From: Candidatus Endomicrobiellum siamense
Lineage (GTDB): Bacteria; Elusimicrobiota; Endomicrobiia; Endomicrobiales; Endomicrobiaceae
Assembly (NCBI GenBank): GCA_031268145.1
Contig: JAIRXS010000026.1
Location: 1 to 48,829 of the forward strand
DNA: 48,829 nt
Reading direction: 5' to 3'
A program made the position numbers and the translations under genes. Positions within the stretch are counted from its first letter, which is position 1. Every line of letters begins with the position of its first letter. The notes below the pieces were generated by a model that was not told the origin of the DNA, searched no databases, and saw only the letters and a program-made list of their open reading frames with translations. Positions 30,108 to 48,829 of the stretch are shown here, piece by piece.

Positions 30108-30124
30108 AAGGGAGGATTTTATTT

Positions 30125-30505: not shown

Positions 30506-30520
30506 ACAGGAGATGCGCAA

Positions 30521-31273
30521 ATGAACGTAAATATGTCTGACAAAATAGTAGTTATTACCGGTGGAAGTAGAGGTATTGGAAAAGAAATAGTGAAAACTTT
30601 TACTGAGCTAGGGGCCTATGTTTATTTTACATATTTGTCTAATGAAGAAGTAGCTAAAGAGTTAGAAGCAAGTTTACTTTCAAGAGGTTTGAAAGTGCAA
30701 GCTGAAAAAGTAAATAATTGTTCACTAGAACAAGTTAACTTGTTTGTTCAAAAAGTTATTAATGAGCAAAAACGTATTGATATCCTAGTAAACAATGCGG
30801 GCTACATTCCGCGAGGATTGTTTTTAAAGACCTCCGAAACAGTTTGGAAAAAAGCCATAGATACGAATCTTGGGGGGGTATATAACTACTGTAGCACTGT
30901 CCTTAAGCATATGGTACTTCAAAAGTCCGGTAACATCATTAATATATCAACAGTTTCAGCGTTACAGCCATCGCCAGGACAAGCAGCATATAGTGCTTCA
31001 AAAGCAGCAATTGAATCATTGACCAGAACACTTGCTATGGAACACGGTAAATATAATATTCGGGTTAACTCTATTGCACCGGGGTTAATTCAAACTGAAA
31101 TAGTAAAAAGTATGTCTCAAGAAGTAAAAGATGAAGTTCTTAAAAAAACACCTTTGGCAAGATTTGGAAACCCGCAAGATATTTCTGATGCTGCTGTGTT
31201 CCTTGCAAGTGATTTTTCTTCTTACATTACAGGAATACAACTTCTAGTAACAGGTGGAAGGCATTTACTTTAA
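30521..31273 (+). CDS. 3-ketoacyl-ACP reductase (FabG-like)
   Basis: Short-chain dehydrogenase of 250 residues that would reduce the beta-keto group after each condensation, using NADPH. Cofactor loop TGGSRGIGK, NNAG, catalytic Ser-Tyr-Lys in STVSALQPSPGQAAYSASK and the PG segment in VNSIAPGLI are all present. AGGAGA precedes the ATG. A run of seven G at 30870-30877 is in the intact frame (codons LGGVY) but is a possible slippage site. Confidence 0.92.
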   Translation: MNVNMSDKIVVITGGSRGIGKEIVKTFTELGAYVYFTYLSNEEVAKELEASLLSRGLKVQAEKVNNCSLEQVNLFVQKVINEQKRIDILVNNAGYIPRGLFLKTSETVWKKAIDTNLGGVYNYCSTVLKHMVLQKSGNIINISTVSALQPSPGQAAYSASKAAIESLTRTLAMEHGKYNIRVNSIAPGLIQTEIVKSMSQEVKDEVLKKTPLARFGNPQDISDAAVFLASDFSSYITGIQLLVTGGRHLL

Positions 31274-31292
31274 AAAATGAGGAGATGTTAGA

Positions 31293-32570: not shown

Positions 32571-33805
32571 GCGAAGAAAAGATAGTTGTCACAGCTGTTA
32601 GCAGCATAACTCCGCTAGGTAATTCGATTTCTGAAATTACAGAAAAACTAATTAAAGGCATTTCTGGAATCAGTGTGATTACGAGATATGATTTAAATGA
32701 TTTCCCTGTTCGACATGGTGGTCAAATTGATGATTCTATTTTGAATAAAATAAGTTATCCATTTGAAAAAGTCAATTTGCAGTTTAAACTTTTTTACTAT
32801 TGCGTAAATGAACTGTTTTCAAAGATAGCGCATAATTATACAGGTTCAAAAATCGGCTGTGCATTGGGAACAGATCCTAATACATCTACGATAGACGATC
32901 TGCAAGTATTGTTTAAAAGATATCATGATACTACAAGCAAGACATATTCTAAGTTTGATGTTACGAAACTTGATAATATAAATCCTTCGTTTTTAATGTA
33001 TCATCTTTCTAAAAATTTTGGTGTAAACGGCCCCTGCTTATGTAATCTCGGAACTTGTTCTGCGTCTACTCAAGCTATAGGCACTGCATATCGATTATTA
33101 CAAAACAAAACTGTAGATATGATGATTGCAGGCGGTGTTTCTTCAAAAACTGATCCAATCTCTATAGCAAGACTTTGCAGATTAGAAGCTTTAGAGCCAA
33201 CAAGAGAAGATTTAAATGAAAACTGTAGACCATTCGATAAAAAAAGAGAAGGTTTTACTATCGCTGAAGGTTGTGTGCTTTTTGTACTTGAAAGAGAAAG
33301 CGATGCCCTTCGCAGAAATGCTGAAATATTGTGCGAGATTAGCGGATATGGGGCAGCATTAGATGGTTTTTCAATAACTGATCCACACGCAGAAGCTAAA
33401 GGAATGGTTTGGTCTATGGAAAGAGCAATTTATGATTCAGGAATTTCAAAAGATGCTATAGATTATATAAACGCTCACGGTACTGCAACAGTAAAGAATG
33501 ATTCACATGAAACAAAGGCAATTAAAAAAGTTTTTGGCGAAAAAGCATACAATATATCCATAAGTTCTACAAAATCAATGCATGGTCATTTAATGACTGC
33601 TGCGGGAGCTATGGAAGTTTTAGATTGTATAATAGCTATAAAAAACAAATTCATCCCTCCGACCATTAAATACAGTAATCTTGACGAAGAATGCGACTTA
33701 GATTATACTCCTAACGTTTATAAACGAAAAGTTATTAATCATGCTTTGACAAATTCTTTTGGTCTTGGTGGACAAAATGCATCATTGATAGTATCTAAAT
33801 ATTAA
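32567..33805 (+). CDS. Beta-ketoacyl-ACP synthase (KSalpha)
   Basis: Condensing enzyme of the cluster, 412 residues, FabF-like. The catalytic set is complete: C164 in LGTCSAST, H304 in NAHGTATVKND, K336 and H341 in STKSMHGHLMTAAGA. It would extend the ACP-bound chain by decarboxylative condensation with malonyl-ACP, with the preceding KSbeta setting chain length. The ribosome site GGAGG lies in the end of the KSbeta gene. Confidence 0.93.
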   Translation: MSEEKIVVTAVSSITPLGNSISEITEKLIKGISGISVITRYDLNDFPVRHGGQIDDSILNKISYPFEKVNLQFKLFYYCVNELFSKIAHNYTGSKIGCALGTDPNTSTIDDLQVLFKRYHDTTSKTYSKFDVTKLDNINPSFLMYHLSKNFGVNGPCLCNLGTCSASTQAIGTAYRLLQNKTVDMMIAGGVSSKTDPISIARLCRLEALEPTREDLNENCRPFDKKREGFTIAEGCVLFVLERESDALRRNAEILCEISGYGAALDGFSITDPHAEAKGMVWSMERAIYDSGISKDAIDYINAHGTATVKNDSHETKAIKKVFGEKAYNISISSTKSMHGHLMTAAGAMEVLDCIIAIKNKFIPPTIKYSNLDEECDLDYTPNVYKRKVINHALTNSFGLGGQNASLIVSKY

Positions 33806-33820
33806 AATAAGGGTGAAAAT

Positions 33821-34363
33821 ATGAGAATTATTGACATTTCACAACCGTTGCTTTCTTGTAAAGTTTATCCTGGTGATAACCCTCCTATGGCAAAACGAGT
33901 AAAGCAAATAGAAAATGATTTTTATAATTTAACAGAAATTTCAATGAGTGTACATAATGGTACACACATTGATACGCCTTTGCATTTTATCGAAAACGGT
34001 AGAAGCGCAGAAGATTTTCCTCTTGAAATATTTTATGGCAAGTGCGCGGTTTCTACATGGTCAGAAGAAATTCCAAAACCATGTAGCCGCTTTCTTATCA
34101 AAGGAAATTATGTAATTAGTGCCGAAGATGCGCAAAAAATTATCAATTCAAATATTCGTTTAATTGGTGTAGAAAGTCAAAGTGTTGGTTCTGTAGAAAA
34201 ACCAATGGAGGTACATAAAATTTTGCTTGGTGCGGGTGTGATTCTGCTTGAGGGATTGAATCTTTCTCATGTTCCCAACGGAGAATACACACTTTCAGCA
34301 TTTCCTTTAAATATATCTGACTGTGACGGTTCACCCGTTCGTGCAGTATTAATAAAAAATTAA
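33821..34363 (+). CDS. Cyclase / kynurenine formamidase-like metal hydrolase (PF04199 type)
   Basis: A 180-residue protein with the family metal-binding signature HNGTHIDTPLHF and the usual N-terminal DISQPL and YPGDNPP segments. The family contains arylformamidases, isatin hydrolases and proteins annotated as polyketide cyclases; all act on carbonyl or amide-type bonds with a divalent metal. In this cluster it may close a ring or lactone or release the chain. Role inferred from context. Confidence 0.82.
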   Translation: MRIIDISQPLLSCKVYPGDNPPMAKRVKQIENDFYNLTEISMSVHNGTHIDTPLHFIENGRSAEDFPLEIFYGKCAVSTWSEEIPKPCSRFLIKGNYVISAEDAQKIINSNIRLIGVESQSVGSVEKPMEVHKILLGAGVILLEGLNLSHVPNGEYTLSAFPLNISDCDGSPVRAVLIKN

Positions 34364-34385
34364 AATAGGTTAGGTGGTGAAAAAA

Positions 34386-35759
34386 TTGAAAGTTTTATTG
34401 GTTCAACCTCCGATTTCAGGAATTACAGTAAAAGGAAGAATAATAGAGCCTCTTGCACTTGAAATATTAGCTGCTACAATTTTACCTAAACACGAGGTAA
34501 GAATTCTTGATTTAAGAATTGAAAATAAGTTAAAAGAAACACTTGAGGATTTTTTGCCGGATATTGTTGGATTTACATGCTATATATGCCAAGTTGAGAT
34601 AGTTAGAAAACTTGCAAAGCAAACCAAGGAATTTAATAGCAATATTGTCACATTAGTAGGCGGAGAACAACCTACTCATTTACCTGAAGAATTTAACACT
34701 CCATGCATTGATTATATTTCCAGAGGTGACGGAGACAGGACATTTCCTAGACTTATTGATGCTATTGTAAATAATTCTACAATAGAGGATATTCCGGGAA
34801 TAGTTAAAGTAGAAAATGGGCAACTTGTGTTTGGAGCCGAAAAAGAAATTTTATGCGATTTATCCAAAAGTCCTATACCAGTCAGAGATCTCACTTTAAA
34901 ATATAGATCGTTTTATAAGTTTTTGGGATGGGGACCCGTTGGTTCGCTTGCAACAAGCCGTGGCTGTAATTACCGATGTAATTTTTGCAGCATTTGGAAA
35001 ATTAGGAAAGGCGTTGTAGGGCAATTTTCATTAGATCGAGTAATAAAAGAATTAAAAATAATAAAAGAAGATTCTATTTATTTTTGTGAAGCTCATTCCT
35101 TTCAAGATATAAAATATGCAGATGCATTAGCGGATTCAATTGTACTAAACCACATTAACAAACGATATATGATGTATGTTAGATCAAATGCTGTCATTAA
35201 TCATAAAAATCTTTTTGAAAAGTGGTATAAAATAGGTTTAAAACGCGTTTTCATAGGGTTTGAAGCAATTACTGATGAGAGACTAAAAGGTCTAAATAAA
35301 GCAAATAAAAATGATTTTAATGAAAGAACTATAGAAATTTTGCATGATATAGGTATTGAAATAGTTGCAAGTTTTATTATTGATTTGGATTTTAAAAAAG
35401 AAGATTTTGAAATCTTAAAAAAATTTGTACTTGAAAAAAATCTAACTATGCCAGTCTACAATATTTTAACTCCGCTTCCTGGCGGCTCTCTTTATGACGA
35501 TAATATAGATTTTTTGAAAAAGGTACCATATTCGCATTTTGATTTTAATCATGCACTTTTGTCAACAGTAATGCCTAAAAAAGAGTTTTATCAAAATATT
35601 GCGGATTTATATTTTGAAACCTATACGAACGATTTACCGAAAGATTTGACTGTTAAATTAGGTTATACTGATGAAATGTTAAAAAGCAGAAAAGCGATGG
35701 GTAAACTTTTGTCCAGAAATATAGAACTTATTTCTGAAGAGGAGATAACTTACTGGTGA
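34386..35759 (+). CDS. Cobalamin-binding-type radical SAM enzyme
   Basis: Class B-like radical SAM protein of 457 residues. The N-terminal 150 residues have the shape of a B12-binding domain (MKVLLVQPPISG start, then FTCYICQ and LVGGEQPTHLP), without the DxHxxG base-off motif. The radical SAM centre is SRGCNYRCNFCSIW (CxxxCxxC). Such enzymes methylate unactivated carbons or perform ring and C-C chemistry. I chose TTG 34386, eight bases after AGGTGG; in-frame GTG codons lie at 34374 and 34377. The stop overlaps the next GTG (GTGA). Confidence 0.87.
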   Translation: MKVLLVQPPISGITVKGRIIEPLALEILAATILPKHEVRILDLRIENKLKETLEDFLPDIVGFTCYICQVEIVRKLAKQTKEFNSNIVTLVGGEQPTHLPEEFNTPCIDYISRGDGDRTFPRLIDAIVNNSTIEDIPGIVKVENGQLVFGAEKEILCDLSKSPIPVRDLTLKYRSFYKFLGWGPVGSLATSRGCNYRCNFCSIWKIRKGVVGQFSLDRVIKELKIIKEDSIYFCEAHSFQDIKYADALADSIVLNHINKRYMMYVRSNAVINHKNLFEKWYKIGLKRVFIGFEAITDERLKGLNKANKNDFNERTIEILHDIGIEIVASFIIDLDFKKEDFEILKKFVLEKNLTMPVYNILTPLPGGSLYDDNIDFLKKVPYSHFDFNHALLSTVMPKKEFYQNIADLYFETYTNDLPKDLTVKLGYTDEMLKSRKAMGKLLSRNIELISEEEITYW

Positions 35760-37219
35760 AATATAATATTTTTGAAACAATAAAAAATAACGGCAATTAT
35801 GAAGCAATAAAATTTGGCGAAAAAATTATTACATACGATAAATTGCTTTTTGATATAGAAGAATCTGTAAATCATTTCACTAAACTAGGTATTACATCTG
35901 TTAGTCATGTGGCAGTTAAAATTAAAAATCCTGTTTCGTACATAAATGTTTTTTTAGCTCTGTGGAAAATAAACGCGACCATAGTACCTTTGGATTTACA
36001 GGTCAGTGAAAATAATATCAACGAACTTTTAGAAGAAACAGATGTAGCATATTTAATAACAGATTCACAAAATTTATGTTCAGAAAATCTTTTAGAATCG
36101 GTTTCTTTTCTTAGTGGAATTATTTATTACACCGACAAAATAAATAATTTTTTAACTTCGAACAAAGCTATAGCTGATAATACTTGGATTCAAAATAAAA
36201 ATTTGCCTAATTTGGGTTACATTATTCTTTTCACATCTGGAACATCTGGAAAAAGTAAAGGTGTTTTAATTGAGAAAGACGCGTTTGTAAATAATGTTAT
36301 GAAAGTGATAGAGTACACGGGATTAAGCTATAAAGACTCTATTTTACTGACATTGCCTCTTACATATTGTTTTGCCTTGTCACAGTTTTTGGCCCATTTG
36401 TTAGTCGGTGGGAAAATTGTACTATATGAAGGACTTAGGAATTGCCTTGGAATATTTTTAAAAGCTGCAGAAAGTAAAGTTACAAATCTTTCAGCAACCC
36501 CATATTTTTACGACACTTTAGTTAAAGAAAAAATTAATAATGCTTACAAAATTAATCAGCTGAAGTTTTTTATGAACGCAGGAGGATATATTTCGAAACA
36601 CACGATAAAAGAAATGTTTGAATTATTCCCAAATGTTATATTTTTCAATAATTATGGACAAACGGAAGCTTCGCCCAGACTTACGTATAACAAAATGATT
36701 AACTCTAACTGTAAGCTTTCTAGCGTAGGGAAGCCTCTAAAAGGTGTGAAAATCAAGATAGAAAAACAAGACGGTGAAATAGGTGAAATTCTTTATAACT
36801 CCGAAGATATGATGGTGAGCTACTATAAAAGCGAACCTATATCAAGAGATTTGTTTATTCATTCTGGAGATTTGGGTTTCATAGATAATTCTGGAGATTT
36901 AACCATACTCGGAAGAAAAGATTCAATGATAAAAATAAATGGTAGAAAAGTCTATAAAAATAAGATTGAAGATGAACTCAATAAATTGACATTTGTTAAA
37001 ATGATAAAACTAAAAAAAACCGTTCACCATAAGTTTGGAGAATATTTTGTGGCTCATGTAGTTATCAATGACGATTACTGTAAAAATACAGCTGTCAGTA
37101 AATTGCAAGAGTACTGCAAAAAGAATTTCGATAAATATATTATTCCTAAAAAATTTATTATACTCGAAAACATGAAGTTGAATTCAAATCAAAAGGTTGT
37201 ACTGGAGGAATCGAAATAA
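35756..37219 (+). CDS. Acyl/aryl-AMP ligase
   Basis: ANL-superfamily adenylating enzyme of 487 residues that would activate a carboxylic acid with ATP and pass it to CoA or the ACP. Core motifs: LFTSGTSGKSKG (160-169), NNYGQTEASPR, HSGDLGFID, GRKDSMIKINGRKVYK and the C-terminal catalytic lysine in NSNQKV. A starter-unit loader is the natural role in this cluster; substrate unknown. Start GTG 35756 overlaps the preceding stop. Confidence 0.9.
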   Translation: MKYNIFETIKNNGNYEAIKFGEKIITYDKLLFDIEESVNHFTKLGITSVSHVAVKIKNPVSYINVFLALWKINATIVPLDLQVSENNINELLEETDVAYLITDSQNLCSENLLESVSFLSGIIYYTDKINNFLTSNKAIADNTWIQNKNLPNLGYIILFTSGTSGKSKGVLIEKDAFVNNVMKVIEYTGLSYKDSILLTLPLTYCFALSQFLAHLLVGGKIVLYEGLRNCLGIFLKAAESKVTNLSATPYFYDTLVKEKINNAYKINQLKFFMNAGGYISKHTIKEMFELFPNVIFFNNYGQTEASPRLTYNKMINSNCKLSSVGKPLKGVKIKIEKQDGEIGEILYNSEDMMVSYYKSEPISRDLFIHSGDLGFIDNSGDLTILGRKDSMIKINGRKVYKNKIEDELNKLTFVKMIKLKKTVHHKFGEYFVAHVVINDDYCKNTAVSKLQEYCKKNFDKYIIPKKFIILENMKLNSNQKVVLEESK

Positions 37220-37683
37220 TGAACTATATGAAGATGATTAATTTTTTAGAGGTTTCTCCGAAAAAATCAATTTCGCGGTTTATATATAGAGAAAGCGAGG
37301 AAATAAGCAGTTTTGATATTGCAAGATTAGCCCCATTTTATTCTGTAATAGAAGCTATTTTTCAGACAGCAGGTGCAGTTGCGAGAGCTTTTACAGAAAA
37401 TAAGAAAGGTGGGTATATTGTAAATTTTAGTAATCTAAAACTCAAAAGACCTGTGATGATGGATGAACTTATTATTATAACAGCAAACTTTATTTCGTAT
37501 TCCGAACGACAAGAATGTTTCTTTTTAAAGACTGAATTAAAAACTGCATTAGAAAATGATATTTTAGTAAATGGCTGTGACTTAATAATTAAGCAAGATA
37601 AAAGCATAACTACAGGGAAATTAAACAATATAAAAAAAGTAAATAATCAAGAGTATTTATTAAGCTTAGGATTTGGTGAGTAA
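37219..37683 (+). CDS. Hot-dog fold dehydratase-like protein without the catalytic histidine
   Basis: A 154-residue FabZ/FabA-like hot-dog protein. The acidic position of the FabZ active site is kept in VIEAIFQTAGA, but the HFPG segment with the catalytic histidine is replaced (DIARLAPFY), so it is probably not an active dehydratase alone. With the His-containing paralogue at 38098 it may form a mixed dimer. Start ATG overlaps the ligase stop (TAATG); GGAGGA lies ahead. Confidence 0.72.
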   Translation: MNYMKMINFLEVSPKKSISRFIYRESEEISSFDIARLAPFYSVIEAIFQTAGAVARAFTENKKGGYIVNFSNLKLKRPVMMDELIIITANFISYSERQECFFLKTELKTALENDILVNGCDLIIKQDKSITTGKLNNIKKVNNQEYLLSLGFGE

Positions 37684-37684
37684 A

Positions 37685-38095
37685 ATGAAAAACATATATA
37701 CTAACCATACTGAAAAAACAGTTTATTTTAACGAGACGGATGCCGGTGGTGTAGTTTATTTTGGGAACATTGGTAAGTATATAGAAATTGGGTTTAGCGA
37801 ATGGTTTCGTGAGTTTGCAAAACCTTTGAAGTATTTTAATAAAAATTATAATATTTTTTTTGTAGTTAAAGAAAGTAACCAATTTTTTAAAAAATCTCTT
37901 CATTATGATGACAACATTGTTATAAAAACCACTTTGAAAAGAATCATTTATTATTCTATTACATTTTCTACAAATATCTGTATAAATGATATTCCACATT
38001 ATTTAGCTCAAACAATCCTTGTTCCCGTAAATATAGATACAAAATCTATTGTAAAAAATCCTGAAGAAATTGTGAAATTTATAGATGAGGTATAA
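37685..38095 (+). CDS. 4-hydroxybenzoyl-CoA thioesterase-type (4HBT) hot-dog thioesterase
   Basis: A 136-residue thioesterase. The family signature with the catalytic aspartate is clear: VYFNETDAGGVVYFGNIGKY. It may release or proofread acyl chains from the ACP. Aryl polyene clusters carry a comparable thioesterase. ATG 37685 is chosen over an upstream in-frame TTG at 37673. Confidence 0.85.
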   Translation: MKNIYTNHTEKTVYFNETDAGGVVYFGNIGKYIEIGFSEWFREFAKPLKYFNKNYNIFFVVKESNQFFKKSLHYDDNIVIKTTLKRIIYYSITFSTNICINDIPHYLAQTILVPVNIDTKSIVKNPEEIVKFIDEV

Positions 38096-38097
38096 AA

Positions 38098-38532
38098 ATG
38101 AGATTAGTACTTATAGACAAGCTGACTGATATTCGGGGAAAATCAATTGTTGGGCAAAAATATTTATCTGTAAATGAAGAAATTTACGAATATCATTTTT
38201 CAAATAATCCTGTATTTCCTGCCGCGATGATGTTTGAAGCTTCATTACAACTTGCGCGAACATTTTTTTGGATGAAAACCAATTTTGAATCATCTATAGT
38301 TCCTACAGAAATTACAAAATTTAAATTCTATAAAGTATTAATTCCCGGAAATATTTTGGAAATTTCAGAAACGATAAATGACAGCGAATTTCCTGAAGTT
38401 TCCGTTGAGGGAATGGTAAATGGTCAAAATATTTTTTCTGGTAAATTTATTTCTAGAGTTGTAAATTTTGATACGATTCATAACAAAGAAGAATGTGATA
38501 ATTATATAAATTTTTTAAAAAAAGTTAATTAG
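38098..38532 (+). CDS. FabZ-like 3-hydroxyacyl-ACP dehydratase
   Basis: A 144-residue hot-dog protein whose active-site stretch YHFSNNPVFPAAMMFEASLQ corresponds to the HFPGNPVMPGVLMIEALAQ type sequence of FabZ, keeping both the histidine and the glutamate. It should remove water from the beta-hydroxyacyl chain after the ketoreductase, producing a trans double bond. It follows the thioesterase by two bases. Confidence 0.83.
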   Translation: MRLVLIDKLTDIRGKSIVGQKYLSVNEEIYEYHFSNNPVFPAAMMFEASLQLARTFFWMKTNFESSIVPTEITKFKFYKVLIPGNILEISETINDSEFPEVSVEGMVNGQNIFSGKFISRVVNFDTIHNKEECDNYINFLKKVN

Positions 38533-38546
38533 AGGTGTCTAAAATT

Positions 38547-40337
38547 GTGAAATTCAAAGAAAATCAATTTTTATATGTGTTCAGTTTAGTTTTGAATAGT
38601 TCTAAATCATTAGCTCTTGCAGTATTTTTTCAAAAATTAATTGTAGGACTCATTCCTGCTTTTATGGTTATATCGATTTCAAAATTTATAGATATGTCTC
38701 TTAGAGTTTTTAATAATAAGTTAGATATAAAAAATGTTTATCCGGCACTATTTTCAATTATTGTTTTATTATTTTTTTCGTTGTTATCTGAAAAAATAAT
38801 TTGCTTTGCAAATGTTAAAATCACAAACAAATTAAGAATAAAGTTGTCGAGTTTAATATTTAAAAAATATGGCAGTCTCGAATATAAACATCTAGAAACC
38901 CCAAAAACTACAGATTTAATCTTGCGATGTACAACGGCCCCAGAAACTAATTTAATGACTACATTTGAAAATAGTTGTAATTTTTTTTCTTTAGTTTTAA
39001 CAGTCTTAAGTGTGGTTGTTATCGTTTTGTCTTATGTTTGGTGGGTAGGCATTTTATTAATTGTTTTTTGTATTCCATTGTTTAGAATTGCACTTAAAAG
39101 TGGCAAAGCGAATTATCTGGCCAATATAGAAGTAACTAAATATAATAAAGAATATTTATATCTTTCTGAGGTGCTAACAGGAAGACACAGTGTAGAAGAA
39201 AGATATCTTTTTAGTTTTGAAGAACTTATAAATTCCAAGTGGAAAGATAATTTTGAGAAAGCAAGAAAAATTTTGTTTAAAACTGAGCTTAAATGGTTTG
39301 CAAAAATGAAATCCGGAAGCTTAATAATGTCTGTTATAGCATTAATTACTACTTTAGCGGCACTTCCGGCAGTATATGACGGTAAAATTTCTATTGGAAT
39401 ATTTATTGCAATGGTAGGTACAATTTATGCGTTAGTAAATAGAATGGCATTAGAATTTACCACTTTAGTTGATGACATTACAAAAGGATTGTGCTATGCA
39501 AGTGATTTGCAAGAATTTTTAAATTTGAGCGAAGATGAAGGTGCTATAGTCAAACCTAGTGCTAAACCTTTACAATTAGAAAAGATAGAATTTAAAGATG
39601 TTAGTTTTAAATATCCAAACACAGATAAGTATGTTTTAAAAAATTTTTCACTTACTATTGAAAATGGTAAGCATTATGCAATTGTCGGTGTAAATGGCGC
39701 AGGAAAAACAACTATGGTGAAGTTATTGACAGGTCTTTACAAAGAATTTGAAGGACAAATATTAATAAATCAAAAAAACATATCAGAATATACTCCTGCA
39801 GAATTAAAATCGCTTTGTTCTATTGCTTACCAAGATTTTTCAAGGTATGAGACTACTTTGAATAAAAATATTGCGATCGGAAATATAAATAAAATGATAA
39901 CTGACAATGCCGAAGAAGACTTTAATAAAGTAGTTGAATTATTAGAATTAAATGAATTAGTAGATACTCTTCCACAAAAATCTGATACCCACCTTGGAAA
40001 AATAAAAAAAGACGGAGTAGATCTCTCGGGTGGACAGTGGCAAAAAATAGCAATTGCAAGACTTTTTAATAATCCTGGTGCACTTAAAATACTTGATGAA
40101 CCCACGGCAGCTTTGGATCCTATTACTGAAAGTAAACTTTATGAAAAATTTGAAAAAGTTTTTAAAGGCCAAACAACTTTATTTATTAGTCACAGATTAG
40201 GTTCAACAAAACTTGCAAATGCAATTTTCGTAATCAACGATGGTAAAGTACAAGAAAAAGGAAACCATAAAGAGCTTATGAATTTGAACAGCACTTATTC
40301 TCTTCTTTATAAAAGTCAAAGGAGCTGGTACGACTGA
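38547..40337 (+). CDS. ABC exporter, half-transporter A
   Basis: Membrane-ATPase fusion of 596 residues: six helices in the first 320 residues, then an ATPase with GVNGAGKTT, LSGGQWQK and LKILDEPTAALDP, and a switch histidine in FISHRLGS. It forms a probable heterodimer with the next gene, whose ATG overlaps its TGA. Start GTG 38547 (nine bases after AGAGGTG) is favoured over GTG 38535. Likely exports the cluster product. Confidence 0.88.
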   Translation: MKFKENQFLYVFSLVLNSSKSLALAVFFQKLIVGLIPAFMVISISKFIDMSLRVFNNKLDIKNVYPALFSIIVLLFFSLLSEKIICFANVKITNKLRIKLSSLIFKKYGSLEYKHLETPKTTDLILRCTTAPETNLMTTFENSCNFFSLVLTVLSVVVIVLSYVWWVGILLIVFCIPLFRIALKSGKANYLANIEVTKYNKEYLYLSEVLTGRHSVEERYLFSFEELINSKWKDNFEKARKILFKTELKWFAKMKSGSLIMSVIALITTLAALPAVYDGKISIGIFIAMVGTIYALVNRMALEFTTLVDDITKGLCYASDLQEFLNLSEDEGAIVKPSAKPLQLEKIEFKDVSFKYPNTDKYVLKNFSLTIENGKHYAIVGVNGAGKTTMVKLLTGLYKEFEGQILINQKNISEYTPAELKSLCSIAYQDFSRYETTLNKNIAIGNINKMITDNAEEDFNKVVELLELNELVDTLPQKSDTHLGKIKKDGVDLSGGQWQKIAIARLFNNPGALKILDEPTAALDPITESKLYEKFEKVFKGQTTLFISHRLGSTKLANAIFVINDGKVQEKGNHKELMNLNSTYSLLYKSQRSWYD

Positions 40338-42118
40338 TGAGCAATTTTCAAAAAAAAGTTAGTGTAAAAAATTTTGTTATATCAATATTCAGAGTTTTAA
40401 AGATGGCTTTTAAAGCAGGTCCTTTATACATAAGCGTTAATAATGCAATTGCTATTATTCATGGTGTATTGTATGGACTTATGACGCTTACAATGCAGTT
40501 ATTTTTTGAATCTGTTATTAGATGTATTCAAAATAAAAATGGCTTAAATGAAGCGATTTTTATGGCATTTGTTCTCTTTGGAGTGTTTATGCTTGCACAT
40601 ATGGTAAATGGTTTAAATAACTTTATGGGAACAAGTTATTTTAAAAAAGTAGTAGGCGCTTTAAATCAGAAAATAAATATTAAGTCTTCAAGAATCGCTC
40701 CTATTTCTTATGAAAATCCGAGTTTGCTTGATGATATTAATAAAGCCACTGTAGGAGCCAATAACAGTTTAGGGTTATTATTTACTGTTACTACTATCTT
40801 TTCTTACTACACTCCGTATTTCTTATTTATGTTTATTTATTTTTATAGACTTAACCCCTTTTTGTCTTTATCACTTGTAGTCATTTTCATTCCAGTTGCT
40901 CTTTCGCAATTTGTAAGGAATCTAATATTTTCTAAGTTGGAAGATGAGATCGCGCCTATAAGGCGTGAAACAAATTATTACAAAACAACTCTAGCTGAAA
41001 AGGAAACTCGAACTTTGGGTGCTTTTAGCTTTTTTGAAAACTTGTATATTTCTTCTTTAGCTTTGTTTAATAAAACCACATGGAAAGTAGAAAAAAAATC
41101 GGGACTTATTGAACTAATAATGAAAATGATTACACTTGCAGGATACTTGGGCGTTTTATACATATTTGTGTCAACACTATTGCAAGGCAAAATTTCTGTG
41201 GGTGCTTTTGCAGCAATATTTTTTTCAATGAATACGATGTTTAACACAATGGATACAATAATTTGTAAACACATAGCTAATATGACACGAAACATGGGGA
41301 CAATAAATAATTTTTTGAATTTTTTAGATATGCCTGAAATTGTAGGTTCACAAAAATCTCAAGATGAGAATTTGGACATAAATTTAAAAAACGTTTGCTT
41401 TAGTTATCCAAATAGCGAAAAAAATGTACTAAATTATATTAATTTAAATATAGAATTCGGAAAAACAATCGCTATTGTTGGTGAAAATGGTTCCGGAAAA
41501 ACCACCCTTGTTAAACTTATTTTGGGATTATATACACCAACTTCGGGAAGTGTAACAATAGGCGGTTTAGATACAAGAAATGTTTCTTTAAAAAGTTTGT
41601 TCAAAAAGTCATCTGCCGTTTTTCAAAACTTTCAAAAATATAAAATGACTTTATCTGAAAATATTATGATCAGCGAAATAAACTCTGATGATAGTGAAAA
41701 AATGAATGATTCTTTAAAAAAAGCCGGACTTTCTGTGGATAAAAAAATATTTCCTCAAAATTATGACACCATACTTTCAAGAGAATTTGATGGTGTAGAA
41801 TTATCAGGGGGGCAATGGCAGAGAGTGGCAATTGCTAGAGGATTATACAGGACGCATGATTTAATTATTCTCGATGAACCCACGGCAGCTATAGATCCGC
41901 TTGAAGAAGCTAATTTGTATAAAAAATTTGCGGAGATTTCAAAGGAGAAAACAGCAGTGATAGTTACTCATAGAATTGGTTCCGCGAGAATTGCAGATGA
42001 AATTGTAGTTATGGATAGGGGTCAAATTTGTGAAATAGGCACACACGATGATCTAATTGATAATGGTGGAAAGTACAGCAATATGTTTTTAGCACAGTCT
42101 AAATGGTATATAAAGTGA
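40337..42118 (+). CDS. ABC exporter, half-transporter B
   Basis: Second 593-residue half: six membrane helices, then GENGSGKTT, LSGGQWQR, LIILDEPTAAIDP and VTHRIGS. Similar in design to the preceding gene but clearly diverged, as in heterodimeric exporters. The signature LSGGQWQ with Trp is shared by both halves, suggesting duplication. One-base overlap with the gene before, four-base GTGA overlap with the gene after. Confidence 0.88.
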   Translation: MSNFQKKVSVKNFVISIFRVLKMAFKAGPLYISVNNAIAIIHGVLYGLMTLTMQLFFESVIRCIQNKNGLNEAIFMAFVLFGVFMLAHMVNGLNNFMGTSYFKKVVGALNQKINIKSSRIAPISYENPSLLDDINKATVGANNSLGLLFTVTTIFSYYTPYFLFMFIYFYRLNPFLSLSLVVIFIPVALSQFVRNLIFSKLEDEIAPIRRETNYYKTTLAEKETRTLGAFSFFENLYISSLALFNKTTWKVEKKSGLIELIMKMITLAGYLGVLYIFVSTLLQGKISVGAFAAIFFSMNTMFNTMDTIICKHIANMTRNMGTINNFLNFLDMPEIVGSQKSQDENLDINLKNVCFSYPNSEKNVLNYINLNIEFGKTIAIVGENGSGKTTLVKLILGLYTPTSGSVTIGGLDTRNVSLKSLFKKSSAVFQNFQKYKMTLSENIMISEINSDDSEKMNDSLKKAGLSVDKKIFPQNYDTILSREFDGVELSGGQWQRVAIARGLYRTHDLIILDEPTAAIDPLEEANLYKKFAEISKEKTAVIVTHRIGSARIADEIVVMDRGQICEIGTHDDLIDNGGKYSNMFLAQSKWYIK

Positions 42119-42723
42119 GTAGTTTACACATTACAGAGTTATTCTGCATAAAAACGAGTGCGAGTGAGTTTAACAGCAGAGTAGAAAAAGCTAGAACAAA
42201 TAGTTTATATGCTGAACTATTGGTTAGATATTTAGCATGTAAGATTTTGAAGATTCCAAATAATCAAGTGATTTTTAAAAGAAATTTTTTTGGCAAACCT
42301 TATCTTATGAGCTATGATAGTTTTTTCTTTAATATTTCTCACAGTGAGGATTTTGTGATTTGCGTTGTCTCATCTAATGAAGTTGGAGCTGACATTCAGA
42401 AAGTAAAACCCATACTATTAGGAATCACAAAAAAACTTTATAGCCTATCAAATGAAAACGAAAGCTTAGATGATTTTTATAATAGGTGGGTTAAGGAAGA
42501 AAGTTATATAAAATATCTGGGCAAAAATATGAAGTTTTCGGTAAAAGCGGCTCCTTCTGTAAAACATGATGTTTGCTTTAAGCAGTATGATATTCATCCT
42601 GATTATAAAATTTCAGTATGTTCAAAAGAAAATACATTTTCAGAAAATATTTTTTCAGTAGATAAAAAAATTCTGGATGATTTTTTTAATATCAATAGAG
42701 AAGATATTAATGGAAAGCTTTAA
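42115..42723 (+). CDS. 4'-phosphopantetheinyl transferase (Sfp type)
   Basis: Converts the apo-ACP to its active holo form by attaching phosphopantetheine from CoA. 202 residues with the Sfp-type motifs GKPYL, FNISHSEDFVICVVSS, VGADIQKV (metal-binding Asp) and WVKEESYIKYLGK. I take GTG 42115, overlapping the exporter stop, over ATG 42103. Presence of a dedicated transferase at the cluster end indicates a self-contained pathway. Confidence 0.88.
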   Translation: MSSLHITELFCIKTSASEFNSRVEKARTNSLYAELLVRYLACKILKIPNNQVIFKRNFFGKPYLMSYDSFFFNISHSEDFVICVVSSNEVGADIQKVKPILLGITKKLYSLSNENESLDDFYNRWVKEESYIKYLGKNMKFSVKAAPSVKHDVCFKQYDIHPDYKISVCSKENTFSENIFSVDKKILDDFFNINREDINGKL

Positions 42724-43172
42724 TAGATTTCAAAAAATTACTTTATAGTGAATATGAATACTTTCAGTATATGTACGATCGAATTACTCCTCAAGTATTA
42801 AAAAGAATTCTTTAATTTATTTAAATCATCATTTATGTCATGCAGCATCTGTTTATTATTGTTCTGATTTTGATAAAAGTATAATTCTGGTTGCTAAATG
42901 CATGTACTTCAATATATTTAGCTAGAAAAGGAAACATTGAAAAATTTAAACAATACTTAATACCTATACAGGTCGTTACTGAGAAAGCAAACAAGTTTAA
43001 ATATGATCTAATTACAAGTTTTGAAAAAATATCTGGTGTACCTGTTATTATTAATACTTCACTCAATTTTAAAGGGCAACCCATTGTTGAAAATCCCTTA
43101 GATGCAATTAGTAGTTTTTATACATCACAACTAGAGTTTTTAATGTTAGAAAACTTTTTATTGAAAAAATAA
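42724..43172 (+). pseudogene. Carbamoyltransferase (NodU/CmcH family) remnant
   Basis: Two pieces of one family survive. Near 42824-42890 a broken frame reads NHHLCHAASVYYCSDFDKSI, matching the N-terminal HHxxHA motif of O-carbamoyltransferases. From 42891 to 43172 a 93-codon frame matches the C-terminal domain (SGVPVIINTSLNFKGQPIVE, then PLDAISSFY). Several hundred residues between them are missing and stops interrupt the first part. The intact enzyme would be about 550 residues. It lies directly after the cluster and may once have carbamoylated its product. Confidence 0.8.
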
Positions 43173-43189
43173 TTTTTAATGATTTTTCT

Positions 43190-43264
43190 TTAGAACGAAT
43201 TTAGGCTTTCTTTAATACTGTTATAGATGTTCAAGAGGTGCATTTGCTCAAATATTTTTAGCAT
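43190..43264 (-). other. Very short open frame with strong ribosome site
   Basis: On the minus strand GGAGGAAAAGCT precedes an ATG that opens 24 codons (MLKIFEQMHLLNIYNSIKES...). No family recognised; it could be the start of a lost gene or transposase. The ribosome site is part of the inverted repeat at 43268-43335. Confidence 0.25.
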
Positions 43265-43267
43265 AGC

Positions 43268-43335
43268 TTTTCCTCCATTCCTGTTGGTGTTTTTGTGGTT
43301 TTTGACACGTTCAAATATACCAAAATGGAGGAAAA
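43268..43335. repeat. Inverted repeat, 12-base arms
   Basis: TTTTCCTCCATT (43268-43279) and AATGGAGGAAAA (43324-43335) are perfect inverted copies 44 bases apart in the gap between the two pseudogenes. Each arm resembles a ribosome site on its outward strand. It may be a trace of a small mobile element or a folded RNA; I see no transposase. Confidence 0.6.
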
Positions 43336-43425
43336 TTAGATATAATTGAAATTCGAAAACCGCGTGATTATTACTTTTTCGAGTTTCACAAATGGATATT
43401 AAATTTATAAAAAGGAGTGTTTGTA

Positions 43426-44908
43426 TTGGAAATTCTTAAGGACTATCTTAATTCTAAGCCAACAGATCAACTCAATTCTCGAATGTTAGCATTCGTTGCT
43501 AATTTAGACATTGTGGAAAAGCCTATCCACTTGTTGCTAAATCTATAGTAACGGAATTAGTTGATCAGAGAAATAACATCAAGCTGATTGCTAGTGAAAA
43601 TTTTTGCTCTTTGGTAGTTCAATATGCAATGGGAAATTTGTTGACCGATAAGTATGCTGAAGGGTATGTAGGGCATCGTTTTTACGCCGGTTGTGATAAT
43701 ATTGAAAAGTTAGCTTGTGATGAAGCGTGCAATCTTTTCGAATGCGAACATGCGTATGTTCAACCGCATTCTGGAGCTGATGCTAATTTAGTCACTTTTT
43801 GAGCGATATTACGAAAAAAAATCCAAACTCCAATAATGGATGAACTTGGACAGAAAAATTTACTTTCATTATCCAAGGAAGAATGGGATAAAATTCGGGT
43901 TAAATTAGGAAATCAGAAACTTTTAGGAATGGACTTGTACTCTGGCGGACATTTAACACATGGATATAGACACAATGTTTCTGCGCAAATGTTTGATGTT
44001 TACAATTATCAAGTGGATAAGGAAACAGGGTTGCTTGATTATAAAGATATTTATAAAAAACTATGTACAATCAAACCACTAGTTTTTTTGGTTGGCTTTA
44101 GCGCTTATTCTCGAAATATTGATTACTCCATTCTCAAAGAATATGCAGATGAAGTCGGAGCAGTTTTAATGGTTGATATGGCGCATTTTGCTGGATTGGT
44201 GGCAGGCAAGGTTTTGAGGGGAAAATTTAATCCTGTGAAGTATGCTGATATCGTAACAACGACAACACATAAAACACTACGAGGACCAAGGGGCGGAATG
44301 GTTCTTTGTAAAAAAGAATATGCCGAATATGTTGATAAAGGATGTCCACATGTTATTGGCGGACCATTACCACACATTATGGCTGCTAAAGCAATCGCAT
44401 TCAAGGAGGCAAATTCGGATAGTTTTAAAGAATATTCCAAGAGGATTGTCGAAAATGCGCAACAATTGGTGATCTCATTTATTGAAAAAGGACTAGATGT
44501 GCAAACAGGTGGTACTGACAATCACATAGTTTTAGTAAATGTTGCAAACTTGGATTGACAGGACGTCAAGTAGAATCTGCGTTAAGGGGGTGTGGCCTAA
44601 CGCTAAATCGTAATACCATTCCTTATGACGAACATGGACCATGGTACACGAGGGGCTTACGTTTTGGCACTGCGGCTGTTACCACATTGGGGATGGGAAG
44701 GAAGGAAATGGTTGAAATAGCTGATATTATAGTTGAAATTCTATTTGACACAAAGCCCACATATGAAGACCAAGTTAAGAGCAAGGTAAAATATACGATT
44801 AATGATGATATTAAAGCTTCGTCAATTTTAAGAGTGAAACAAATTCTAGCTGGGTTTGTACTGTATCCTGAAATTGATATGGACTTCATTGGACGATATT
44901 TCAATTAG
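43426..44908 (+). pseudogene. glyA: Serine hydroxymethyltransferase, long chlamydial-type, with three point lesions
   Basis: PLP enzyme converting serine and tetrahydrofolate to glycine and methylene-THF. Start TTG 43426 behind AAAGGAG. The sequence is SHMT almost throughout: [55 protein letters not shown], the PLP lysine in TTTTHKTLRGPRGG, and the C-terminal GLTLNRNTIPYDEHGPW. Three lesions break it: a one-base loss in an A run near 43518; TGA at 43800-43802, in frame, at a place that is often Trp in the family (LVTF*AIL); and a one-base loss in a G run near 44553. Repaired it would be 494 residues, matching the long chlamydial form. The damage is light, so inactivation is recent or partly a sequencing matter. 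Confidence 0.88.
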
Positions 44909-45131: not shown

Positions 45132-45206
45132 CCACGGTCAAGTAATAAGACAGTTGAATGCTGTAAGTTATTTAATTTAAGTATAAAATTTATGATAAGA
45201 GGGAAA

Positions 45207-45476
45207 ATGGATATTTTCGATTTTACGTGGATTATCGCTATAATTTCAATTACAGGAACATTTTTTAATATTAAGAAGAAAGTGTTTTGCTTTTACTTAT
45301 GGGCAATAGTTGAGGTGTTATGTTTCATACTAGATATTCAAAATAAGCAATACGGTAGATCATTTTTAGATATGTTTGGTTTTTGTATGAATATTTACGG
45401 TATAATTGCTTGGACTAAAGGGAGTGAAGAAGAAAATAACAGGGTAAATGAAGGTAAGGTGAAAATAAATGAATAA
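45207..45476 (+). CDS. Small PnuC-like membrane protein, copy 1
   Basis: An 89-residue protein with about three membrane helices and a charged C-terminal tail. The pattern FNIKKKVFCFYLW, IQNKQYGRSFLDM, NIYGIIAW resembles short PnuC-like proteins (nicotinamide riboside transporter fold) but is far below full PnuC length, so it would have to oligomerise. ATG 45207, behind AGAGGG, matches the start of the neighbouring paralogue better than ATG 45192. Overlaps copy 2 by eight bases. Confidence 0.7.
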   Translation: MDIFDFTWIIAIISITGTFFNIKKKVFCFYLWAIVEVLCFILDIQNKQYGRSFLDMFGFCMNIYGIIAWTKGSEEENNRVNEGKVKINE

Positions 45477-45723
45477 CTTTGATATTACGTGGATTACTGC
45501 GATAGTTTCAATAATAGCATCATATCTTAATATTAAAAAGAAAGCGATTTGTTTTTATTTATGGGGGTTAACTGTAATAGTTCACTTTATAATTGATATT
45601 GGAAATAAGCAATATGGCAGATCATTTTTGGATATATTTTTGTTAGGTATAAATATCTATGGTATAATTGCCTGGACAAAGAAAGAAGAAACAAAAAATA
45701 ATGATTTACAAGTTGATTCATAA
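45469..45723 (+). CDS. Small PnuC-like membrane protein, copy 2
   Basis: An 84-residue paralogue of the gene just upstream, identical at well over half the positions, including LNIKKK, CFYLW, NKQYGRSFLD and NIYGIIAWTK. Tandem duplication with overlap suggests the two form a heteromer. No function can be assigned; transport of a small metabolite is a guess from the fold. Confidence 0.7.
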   Translation: MNNFDITWITAIVSIIASYLNIKKKAICFYLWGLTVIVHFIIDIGNKQYGRSFLDIFLLGINIYGIIAWTKKEETKNNDLQVDS

Positions 45724-45764: not shown

Positions 45765-45793
45765 TTGACATTATTTATAAATTTATTTACACT
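45765..45793 (+). promoter_or_regulatory. Promoter of the RiPP operon
   Basis: A consensus TTGACA (45765-45770) and TACACT (45788-45793) 17 bases apart. Transcription would start near 45800, leaving about 190 bases of untranslated leader before the precursor gene. It is the best -35 box seen in the window. Confidence 0.6.
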
Positions 45794-45799
45794 GATGTA

Positions 45800-45993
45800 A
45801 GTTCGTAAGTAAGCTCAGTTTAAACTTATACTTGTCTACGAGCTAATCGCTTAAACTTCTACTTAACTCCTCTCGAACTCCATTATATTAAATTCACTTG
45901 GCTTCCACGTTCAGGTTCTCCCAATTCCTTTTTATGAGTAAAATTTTTATTTTACCGCTAAAAGCGGATATTAATTAAGATTGGAGGGAAAAA
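45800..45993 (+). other. Long 5' leader of the RiPP operon with two hairpins
   Basis: No gene seen. An imperfect direct repeat TTAAACTTATACTT / TTAAACTTCTACTT lies about 30 bases apart near 45822-45866. Just before the ribosome site two hairpins stand in tandem: GTAAAAT/ATTTTAC (about 45938-45954) and CCGCT/AGCGG (45955-45967). Neither has a T run, so they are RNA structures rather than terminators. Confidence 0.45.
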
Positions 45994-46146
45994 ATGGCAA
46001 AGGTTAAAAAAGAAAAAGTCGTATTTTTTGAAGAAGACCTAGCTTCACATTGTGGATGTGGTATGCGAGGAGATGATCGTCCATGGAGAGATCCGCCCTC
46101 GCACGTTCACGCCCGACTTTATACTCCTTCTCAACACAAAGACTGA
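45994..46146 (+). CDS. Candidate RiPP precursor peptide
   Basis: A 50-residue peptide with strong GGAGG six bases before the ATG. The first 19 residues (basic start, then VVFFEEDLAS) look like a leader; the likely core from H19 is HCGCGMRGDDRPWRDPPSHV plus 12 more residues ending HKD, with cysteines at 20 and 22 and many Arg, Asp, Pro and His. Directly downstream on the same strand are a small RRE-like candidate, a radical SAM/SPASM enzyme and an ABC exporter, the classical layout of a radical-SAM RiPP operon. The second half of the gene is markedly richer in G and C than its surroundings. No known family recognised. Confidence 0.75.
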   Translation: MAKVKKEKVVFFEEDLASHCGCGMRGDDRPWRDPPSHVHARLYTPSQHKD

Positions 46147-46164
46147 TAGAGAACAGAATAGTTG

Positions 46165-46434
46165 ATGTACACATTAAATAAATTTTTACAAATTAAAAAA
46201 TCTTATGCCTTAGATTCATTTTATATAATTTATGTGCAATATCCATTTTATATAAAATGTGATTCAAAATTTTATGTATCTAGGGAAATGAAAAAAATTT
46301 TATATTATTTAAAAAAGATTAAGAATTTTGAATTAACTATTTTTTATGAAATTTTAAATAATAGTGAAGATGAAATAAAAAAAATGATTAGAATGTTAAT
46401 TAGCAATAAGGTAATTTTAAATGAGCTTAAATAG
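46165..46434 (+). CDS. PqqD/RRE-like small protein (candidate)
   Basis: An 89-residue protein between precursor and maturase. The second half (MKKILYYLKKIKNFELTIFY, then SEDEIKKMIRMLISNKVIL) has the helix-turn-helix rhythm of PqqD-type RiPP recognition elements, which bind leader peptides and present them to the radical SAM enzyme. Primary sequence similarity is weak, so this rests on size, place and pattern. ATG 46165 is chosen; a TTG precedes it at 46162. It overlaps the maturase by 14 bases. Confidence 0.55.
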   Translation: MYTLNKFLQIKKSYALDSFYIIYVQYPFYIKCDSKFYVSREMKKILYYLKKIKNFELTIFYEILNNSEDEIKKMIRMLISNKVILNELK

Positions 46435-47404
46435 CTATATTAAAATTACGCTAGAATTAACATATAATTGTAATTTTAAATGTGTGCATTGCTTTAATTC
46501 CTATAAGAAAGCTCAAGATAAAAGTCTTGAGCTTTCTTTAGAAGACATAAAATATATCGTAAAAAAAACTAAAAAATTAGATATTCTTAGGGTATATTTA
46601 TTTGGTGGAGAGCCTCTGCTTAATAAAAATTTTAAAGAAATCTATGTATTTTTATGGAATCAAGGGTTACAAATTGCAATTACTACGAATGGCTTTCTAA
46701 TAACTAAGGAAATTATTGATCTTTTCAAGAAATATCCTCCTTTTATTTTCAACATTAGCTTGTATGGATACAATTTTCAAACATATATAGATACAACCTC
46801 TCTTAATGTTTTTGAAACTATTTATTCAAATCTAAAATCCCTACAGGAAAGTAATATAGATTTTTTTATTAAATATGTAGCTTTGAAAACCAATTTTAAC
46901 TATGATTTAGTAATTGATTTTATGTTAAAAAATAACTTTGATTACACAATTCAACATTCAATAATCCCACTTTTAAATACAGATCTAAAAAGTTTACAAT
47001 ATCAAATTTCTGAAACTGAAATAAAGCAAATAAATCTAGATAAAAACATAGATCTAAAAGTAGATGACACAGAACACTATTCGGTCTATGAAAAAAGAGA
47101 AAATAAATGCGAAGTTTGGAAACAAAGTTTTGTAATTGCTCCTAATGGAGATATGAGGCCGTGTATTCCATTTACTAATTCAAAAAAAATTAATATATTC
47201 GAAAGGGAAAAAATTGAAAAATTATTGCTAAAATTAGGTGATAATTTTAATGAAAATAATATATATTATGGTAAATGTAGTAAATGTTTAGATAAAAATT
47301 TTTGTGAATGTCCTGTTATTATAAACTTATATAAAGGTAAAGATCTATCTAGTATTTGTCACCAAGCTAAAATTAAAAAATCAGAAAAACAAGGTAGTAA
47401 GTAA
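46421..47404 (+). CDS. Radical SAM/SPASM peptide maturase
   Basis: Radical SAM enzyme of 327 residues. The cluster-binding motif CNFKCVHC lies near the N-terminus (LELTYNCNFKCVHCFN), followed by FGGEPLLN (SAM-binding GGE) and TTNGFL. The C-terminal SPASM domain supplies further cysteines: CEVWKQSF, the PNGDMRPC segment, KCSKC, NFCECP and SICHQ, enough for one or two auxiliary Fe-S clusters. Such enzymes make thioether or carbon-carbon crosslinks in peptides; the substrate is probably the 50-residue peptide upstream. Confidence 0.9.
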   Translation: MSLNSYIKITLELTYNCNFKCVHCFNSYKKAQDKSLELSLEDIKYIVKKTKKLDILRVYLFGGEPLLNKNFKEIYVFLWNQGLQIAITTNGFLITKEIIDLFKKYPPFIFNISLYGYNFQTYIDTTSLNVFETIYSNLKSLQESNIDFFIKYVALKTNFNYDLVIDFMLKNNFDYTIQHSIIPLLNTDLKSLQYQISETEIKQINLDKNIDLKVDDTEHYSVYEKRENKCEVWKQSFVIAPNGDMRPCIPFTNSKKINIFEREKIEKLLLKLGDNFNENNIYYGKCSKCLDKNFCECPVIINLYKGKDLSSICHQAKIKKSEKQGSK

Positions 47405-48829
47405 GTGAAAAAATTTAAAATTTTTAATAAAGATTTTATTAAATCACAAATTTGTATATTTATTACTATCATAATTTTACAATTGTTTTTTTTAGTAGAA
47501 CCGTTTATATACAAAAAAATTATAGATGAAGCTGTATTAAAAAATAATTTGAATTTATTTTTTAAGTATATATCTATTTATCTGATTTTTGCTTTGATAA
47601 GACTCTTGTTAGAATATTTGCATTTTATATGTGCCGCCTATTTTCAAAATAAAAACTATTTAATATTGAATAATATTTTTTTTACAAAGTTTTTAAAAAT
47701 AAAAGAAGATATATTAAAGAAAAAAGCAGGCGGAGAAATACAACATATTCTTAATAATGACATTAATAATATTTTGTATTATGTAACATCTACTTTTGCT
47801 AATTTGTCAAGTAATTTGTTGAGTGCGTTAGTAGCTTTATTTTTCGTTTTCAGATTAAATACAAAAATAGGATTTATTGCTTTAGTTAGTTTTTCTATCA
47901 TGTTGTTTGTTACTAATAAATTTTATAAAAGAAATATAGCATTAGCCCCATCTATAAGAGATATATCGAAAGATAAGCTAGACTTTTTACTTTCAACATA
48001 TAATTATTCAGGATATATAAAAAGCAATCGATTGATAGATTTTTTCAAAGGCAAGTATTTTGGACTTAATAATAAATATAATTTTTATTTATACAAAGAA
48101 GCATGCAATGATATTCTTTCTGGACAAATAAATAATTTTTTAAGGTTAGTAGTAAGTATTTTAGTTTTAATATTTATGGGTTTGGAGTTATTTCGAGGTC
48201 AAACTACTTTAGGGGCAATATTAGCAGTACAAGTTCTTTTACCTCTATTTTATAACCCTATGTTGAGTTTTTTTAATAGTATAACAAGATTAGGAAAGAC
48301 TAAAGAATCATTAAAAAGATTAGAAGAATTCGGGAATTATGATGAAGAAATTTATGGGAAAGGATTAAAAATAGATAAAATAAAAACCATCAACCTGGAC
48401 AATATTAAATATTCCCATGATAACAAAAAAGTTCTATATGAAAATTTAACAAAAAAAATAGAGATAGGAAAAATAAATTTTATTATTGGAGCAAATGGCA
48501 TAGGAAAAACCACTTTATTTAAAATAATCTTAAACTTATTTGATTTGGATACAGGAGATATAAAAATTAATGATACATCTATAAAAGAGATAGACTTGGA
48601 AAGTTATAGGAAACATTTTTTGTATACATCACAAGAGTCATTTATAATGAAAGGAACTATCATAGAAAATATAGTTTTAAATAAATCAATAACTCAAGAA
48701 GATTTGATTGGAATATTAAAAAAGTATAATTTATATGGTAGAGTTAATAAATTAGGCGGTCTAGATAAAAAGGTTTCTAGCGGCGGAAAAGAATTAAGTG
48801 GTGGAGAAAAACAAATAATAGAAATTATA
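47405..48829 (+). CDS. ABC exporter, truncated by the window end
   Basis: Starts with GTG 47405 directly after the maturase stop and is still open at the last base (475 codons seen). Six membrane helices fill about residues 15-310; the ATPase has GANGIGKTT, a Q-loop region and LSGGEKQ near the window end, so roughly 80-100 residues are missing. There is no N-terminal C39 peptidase domain, so the leader must be removed by another protease. Likely exports the mature peptide. Confidence 0.9.
   Translation, partial: MKKFKIFNKDFIKSQICIFITIIILQLFFLVEPFIYKKIIDEAVLKNNLNLFFKYISIYLIFALIRLLLEYLHFICAAYFQNKNYLILNNIFFTKFLKIKEDILKKKAGGEIQHILNNDINNILYYVTSTFANLSSNLLSALVALFFVFRLNTKIGFIALVSFSIMLFVTNKFYKRNIALAPSIRDISKDKLDFLLSTYNYSGYIKSNRLIDFFKGKYFGLNNKYNFYLYKEACNDILSGQINNFLRLVVSILVLIFMGLELFRGQTTLGAILAVQVLLPLFYNPMLSFFNSITRLGKTKESLKRLEEFGNYDEEIYGKGLKIDKIKTINLDNIKYSHDNKKVLYENLTKKIEIGKINFIIGANGIGKTTLFKIILNLFDLDTGDIKINDTSIKEIDLESYRKHFLYTSQESFIMKGTIIENIVLNKSITQEDLIGILKKYNLYGRVNKLGGLDKKVSSGGKELSGGEKQIIEII

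Follow-up and report, generated by a model that had tools for sequence, protein, structure and literature searches.

Gene order at the end of the contig

The window, by which is meant the whole stretch of 48,829 nucleotides that was analysed, is a contig of Candidatus Endomicrobiellum siamense, and the host is an Endomicrobium/Endomicrobiellum MAG. At its end lie four open reading frames on the plus strand, in the tight order precursor peptide, small gene, radical-SAM gene and ABC gene, at the positions first assigned to them (Table 1). The radical-SAM gene overlaps the small gene that precedes it. The contig ends inside the ABC gene, and another contig of the same assembly, C1, opens with the identical 59 bp, keeps the frame and supplies the end; the joined ABC protein is about 539 aa long, and the joined sequence is colinear with that of a relative at 91% identity. 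Once C1 is added the operon is complete, with all four frames intact and both a ribosome-binding site (RBS) and a promoter-like site in place.

Table 1. Positions of the operon genes and of the putative expression signals in the window
Feature	Position	Strand	Remarks
Promoter-like site TTGACA-17-TACACT	45765..45793	+	10/12 matches
RBS GGAGGG	45983..45988	+	5 nt upstream of precursor ATG
RiPP precursor, 50 aa	45994..46146	+	leader ~1-19, presumed modified core C20-W31, variable tail 32-50
Small protein, 89 aa + stop (90 codons)	46165..46434	+	position of an RRE/PqqD-like leader-binding protein, identity unconfirmed
Radical-SAM/SPASM maturase, 327 aa	46421..47404	+	CX3CX2C at residues 17-24; auxiliary-cluster Cys 230, 248, 286, 289, 295, 297, 313
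ABC exporter (TM + ATPase, no C39 peptidase), GTG start	47405..48829	+	Pfam ABC_membrane + ABC_tran; continues into C1 bases 60-254

The first-pass annotation had put the whole operon behind one promoter. The site is indeed there, and the same element, as TTGACA-17-TATACT, stands upstream of the precursor of a congener (G008) within a stretch that is 76% identical. Promoter-like sites are nonetheless common in this A + T-rich region (13 found versus 11.5 expected), and that this one is used as a promoter is something we infer. The surroundings of the RBS, AAGATTGGAGG(G), are common to the window, two congeners (L028 and G008) and two further loci discussed below (G030 and C23).

The region upstream of the operon has features of its own. 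A cluster at 29214-42723 encodes an ACP, a ketoreductase-type SDR, two ketosynthases, a putative cyclase and a B12-binding radical-SAM protein, together with an AMP-binding ligase, a 4HBT thioesterase, a FabA-like dehydratase, two ABC transporters and a 4'-phosphopantetheinyl transferase; the gene content suggests a type II polyketide pathway, either aryl-polyene-like or of another sort, which is unexpected for so small a genome. Between this cluster and the RiPP operon, at 42891-44908, are the remains of apparent pseudogenes, namely a C-terminal piece of a carbamoyltransferase and a serine hydroxymethyltransferase split across several frames. Tandem half-length PnuC-like proteins of 94 and 84 aa follow at 45192-45723, their DNA 80% identical in two blocks, and each half matches about 70 positions of the NMN transporter model, which has 175. 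The G030 cluster, too, ends with a fragment resembling these halves (L065, reverse strand).

The precursor peptide and its relatives

The window precursor, MAKVKKEKVVFFEEDLASHCGCGMRGDDRPWRDPPSHVHARLYTPSQHKD, contains two cysteines (C20 and C22), one Trp and four His. It had been described as a 50-residue peptide with a leader/core layout, and comparison with related loci bears this out, for the ORF is present and its leader recurs in L028, in G008 and in truncated relicts. The first of these, from 'Endomicrobium sp. Gx481_bin217', has the closest maturase in GTDB (87% identity) and belongs to the same genus as the window by the kinship table; its precursor, MAKFKKEKVSFFKKELKALCAYTLADDNPWKDRRPPNPPPTQPKPQPPLPGFPPFRPFF, occupies the same place, ahead of a small gene and the maturase. 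The G008 precursor, MTKFKKEKVSFFKKELRLDCACARGDDSPWLMPPPPPRPNPPPLPKPF, stands before a collapsed operon. The next maturase in GTDB, from 'Candidatus Endomicrobiellum cryptotermitis' (L029), is 63% identical in the best segment. The window and both congeners share the Lys-rich leader pattern [AT]KxKKEKVxFF..xL, and among the Endomicrobium precursors this leader is kept while the cores have diverged and the tail after the Trp changes almost completely. The hypervariable tail is Pro-rich in both congeners; the possibility that the window precursor has such a tail in a shifted frame was discarded, as the six-frame ORFs offer none in any frame. No GG motif is present in the window leader.

Outside the genus, the maturase has its best full-length relative in Clostridium hydrogeniformans (L030), a SPASM enzyme of 343 aa that is 32% identical over 308 aligned columns. 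Directly before its gene lies a 32-aa ORF, MFYEKPEFEIITINLLGNVCACASDDDNPWAG, which contains CACASDDDNPW and ends two residues past the Trp (WAG), with no tail; downstream of the maturase come an ABC exporter and then PqqD (Pfam E = 5e-10). When the Endomicrobium peptides were compared with the Clostridium peptide by Smith-Waterman alignment, the score was reached by 0 of 5000 shuffles for L028, 0 of 5000 for G008 and 6 of 5000 for the window. No description of the Clostridium operon was found in the literature searched. A YydG-type peptide epimerase is encoded directly upstream of the Clostridium precursor (L030 6726-7607), so that peptide may carry D-residues too.

The four precursors share the core signature C-[AG]-[CY]-x3-4-D-D-x-P-W, with C20, both Asp, the Pro and the Trp invariant. 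Initial attention had fallen on the Cys-Gly-Cys spacing, the Trp and the four His of the window peptide. That composition is correct, but neither Cys-Gly-Cys nor the His/Arg content is a signature of the family: the second Cys is Tyr in L028, the four His are absent elsewhere, and neither is conserved across the four. A peptide that failed to recur beside homologous maturases, or a different precursor adjacent to them, had been named in advance as evidence against the operon; the comparison turned up neither, because the L028, G008 and L030 peptides all carry the signature. Chance is an unlikely explanation, given the leader in two other genomes, the motif next to a maturase from a different phylum (32% identity), and a dN/dS of 0.18 for the radical-SAM gene.

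The precursor had also been said to belong to no recognised family, and look-ups in NCBIfam, Pfam and PHROGs agree, returning nothing above chance; a literature search for the motif 'DDNPW' matched only unrelated papers. Precursor family, motif and maturase group are without a model in the libraries searched. Wider searches recovered little more. Profile A1 found two matches in 291 Clostridia genomes, one in the Clostridium genome already described and one (L043) with no recognisable precursor. Searching 399 Bacillota genomes with the L030 enzyme gave more distant enzymes with unrelated precursors, C. hydrogeniformans itself was alone in containing the core-motif DNA pattern when 227 genomes from the order of Clostridium were searched, and a plasmid search yielded at most about 31% identity. 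Twelve core-motif matches in IMG/VR look like chance and lie in unrelated frames. Other gene arrangements were noted along the way: at L082 2461-2580, from Bacillota, a related maturase is followed by a peptide ending NCTHWKDSPSPN, a motif that differs from DDxPW, and in other Elusimicrobiota (L010 2510-2665 and L015 2544-2690) a precursor ending ...EQAALACGKCISGNPVFK[GS]GC... is found with a PqqD-type protein and a radical-SAM maturase.

The maturase, the small protein and the exporter

The maturase had been called a SPASM radical-SAM enzyme, and the second part of that name is the firmer. Pfam Radical_SAM (PF04055) matches with E = 1.8e-22, and C17, C21 and C24 are invariant in the alignment with L028 and L030. 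The auxiliary layout, C-x12-G-x4-C ... C-x2-C-x5-C-x-C ... C with seven Cys, is SPASM-like and fits the assignment, but the SPASM model itself (PF13186) scores below threshold, with E = 0.0018 and 18.9 bits where the cut-off is 21.5. The C295-x-C297 spacing is unusual, being CX1C and not CX3C. For this enzyme, all the NCBIfam models listed stay far below their cut-offs: PapB (NF047865) gives 67 versus 340 bits, SkfB 42.5 versus 300 and AlbA 48.6 versus 850, and MftC-, MoaA- and PqqE-type models score as highly as those for crosslinkers. The best solved relative of the maturase profile is the sactisynthase SkfB (PDB 6efn, E = 1.7e-20), followed by PDB 5wgg, which we take to be the ranthipeptide maturase CteB. 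An AlphaFold2 model of the enzyme was of low confidence (mean pLDDT 37).

There is some indication of where the maturase came from. A tree built from 29 radical-SAM rows places the enzymes of the window and L028 with Bacillota RiPP maturases, including that of Clostridium, with moderate support (84/87), and other Elusimicrobiota enzymes do not group with them; branches are long. This position, with Bacillota and apart from other Elusimicrobiota, suggests as a lead that the operon was probably acquired from Bacillota-like donors.

The small protein is 83% identical to its L028 counterpart. By its place and size it should be a leader-binding partner, and it was initially labelled RRE-like. That identity was not confirmed: no PqqD match was found in Pfam or NCBIfam, hhalign against three PqqD-type proteins was negative, an AlphaFold2 model from two sequences was of low confidence (pLDDT 40), and Foldseek was uninformative, though alignments of two or three sequences make very shallow profiles, too shallow to exclude it.

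The exporter, in turn, is peptidase-free, as had been proposed. No domain stands ahead of its membrane region, models of C39-peptidase ABC proteins align to it only from about model position 146, and the best NCBIfam alignments begin past the peptidase domain. No dedicated leader protease was seen. Purifying selection is evident in comparison with L028, with dN/dS values of 0.18 for the maturase, 0.18 for the compared part of the ABC gene and 0.29 for the small protein.

Proposed pathway

The central claim of the first-pass annotation, an unfamiliar radical-SAM RiPP operon, is upheld: its parts are present, and the leader and core motif are kept in relatives. The locus is probably a compact operon for a SPASM radical-SAM RiPP whose family is rare and undescribed, and the gene set very probably makes, modifies and exports a short peptide. 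In the pathway proposed here, the Lys-rich leader (KKEKVxFFxxxL) would bring the peptide to the maturase, with the 89-aa protein probably acting as a leader-binding subunit. The radical-SAM enzyme would then abstract a hydrogen within C20-W31 and close a small ring, the ABC protein would export the product, and a protease from another locus would cut off the leader. Maturation probably does not require the variable tail that follows the motif, as the Clostridium peptide stops two residues past the Trp.

The nature of the ring is a matter for conjecture. Our best guess, itself short of an even chance, is a thioether that links one Asp of the DD pair to the conserved Cys, meaning C20 or, in peptides that have it, C22. 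In its favour, neither Cys nor Asp varies among the precursors, and CX3D spacing, which is the spacing of freyrasin-type substrates, occurs in two of the four; it is only a guess because the second Cys is Tyr in L028 and the window itself reads CX4D, not CX3D. In freyrasin the bonds run from Cys to Asp as S-Cbeta links (PMC11002830).

A bond involving the invariant Trp ranks next. Such a Trp-centred carbon-carbon ring, whether a three-residue cyclophane (triceptide) or a Trp-Asp or Trp-Cys crosslink, gains some appeal from the presence of Trp in all four precursors and from the W-x-D of the window and L028, a known 3-CyFE pattern (PMC11002830). However, the residue two places after the Trp is D, D, M and G in the four peptides, so that Trp-x-Asp is unlikely to be the reaction of the whole family; C20 is as invariant as the Trp, and the best-scoring solved relatives of the maturase are thioether formers. 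We regard this kind of ring as rather unlikely.

It is a little less probable again that the maturase forms no crosslink and carries out some other radical reaction on the motif, such as decarboxylation, epimerisation or splicing. The equal scores of the MftC-, MoaA- and PqqE-type models would allow for this, and the Clostridium relative adjoins an epimerase of the YydG type. That epimerase is a separate enzyme, however, and the Clostridium maturase resembles SPASM maturases and not YydG; moreover, the four peptides lack the common C-terminal residue that an MftC-like reaction would need, and the joint conservation of Cys and Asp points to crosslinking. Least probable of all is a bolder version of the ring model, in which C-[AG]-[CY]-x3-4-DDxPW would define a new RiPP class with an undescribed type of bond (Cys, Asp and Trp joined, for example) and the fast-changing Pro-rich tail would be a recognition part added in Endomicrobium; the product would then be a ringed, Pro-rich peptide from a lineage of bacteria that inhabit termite-gut protists.

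Decay of the operon in Endomicrobium

Across the 42 genomes of the genus that were searched, several of them incomplete, every part was found intact only in the window's own. The operon is very rare, and every other Endomicrobium genome that turned out to carry it has a broken or incomplete copy. The ABC gene carries a nonsense codon in L028 and a frameshift in G016, where the maturase lies beyond the contig end; a deletion in G008 has removed the radical-SAM gene and fused the small gene to the ABC gene; and in L029 the operon has decayed to fragments. Truncated leader fragments also occur in the window's own genome (C23:25259-25345; L005, reverse) and in G030 (L065), each ending exactly where the Cys codon is expected and continuing into unrelated sequence. 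They were considered as selenocysteine-type precursors and rejected, since a stop at the Cys codon position with unrelated sequence beyond marks them as fragments. The G030 fragment precedes B12-type and MoaA-like radical-SAM genes and an MFS transporter, and the C23 fragment likewise stands before unrelated genes, as if the leader block marked a site of pathway exchange.

This record raises the question of whether the window operon is itself a decaying import with no present function, its peptide ORF a remnant. The ABC gene is broken in three relatives, the maturase lost from one and a whole operon decayed in another, and both genome erosion and the horizontal acquisition of genes are known from the genus (PMC11257099). 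Against this stand the four intact frames of the window, its RBS and promoter-like site, and the low dN/dS of the maturase and exporter genes, which make mere decay improbable. A functional pathway is the preferred reading, and its benefit may be small or transient, given the broken operons elsewhere.

Significance

Radical-SAM RiPP maturases rank among the main sources of novel peptide chemistry. Here a precursor motif has been retained in two phyla next to a maturase that no family model describes, which makes a ready test case with just four small parts. The members of Endomicrobiellum known so far live as endosymbionts of termite-gut flagellates; their genomes are eroding and acquire genes horizontally (PMC11257099). 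Judging from its genus, the window organism presumably lives inside a flagellate as well. With the operon, a predicted modified and exported peptide comes to light in a lineage known mostly from such symbionts; natural products, bacteriocins and radical SAM go unmentioned in the Endomicrobia genome paper (PMC11257099). Seen across the relatives, the stages of decay display the stepwise loss of such a pathway.

Comparison with known systems

Among the closest counterparts is the C. hydrogeniformans operon, which likewise has a peptide with the core signature (there CACASDDDNPW), a SPASM-type maturase and an ABC exporter, and also a PqqD. It differs in its upstream YydG-like epimerase, in a clear PqqD placed at the end, in a leader unlike that of Endomicrobium and in the missing tail.

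Ranthipeptides are marked by thioethers from S to Cbeta or Cgamma, sactipeptides by thioethers from S to Calpha. Ranthipeptide systems (PapB/freyrasin, CteB/thermocellin) likewise pair a SPASM radical-SAM enzyme with Cys-containing precursors, and the window maturase is a distant match to rSAM_PapB (NF047865). It scores far below the PapB cut-off, however, and where ranthipeptides have a repeated multi-Cys pattern, the window family has one or two Cys, an invariant PW and a variable tail. The sactipeptide enzymes SkfB and AlbA share the SPASM-type auxiliary Cys, SkfB being the best solved match, but the window enzyme falls short of both model cut-offs and has no N-terminal extension, and its precursor is unlike every sactipeptide family model. 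Triceptide enzymes (XncB, OscB and MscB; 3-CyFE) are SPASM proteins too, and two of the four precursors have an aromatic residue with Asp at i+2; with D, D, M and G at that position, the family does not conserve the aromatic-x-acceptor pattern, and it keeps C20 and DD upstream of the Trp. Bacteriocins exported by C39-peptidase ABC proteins differ in that the window exporter has no peptidase and its leader no GG. As a SPASM radical-SAM RiPP the system is of a kind already known; its chemistry is possibly new.
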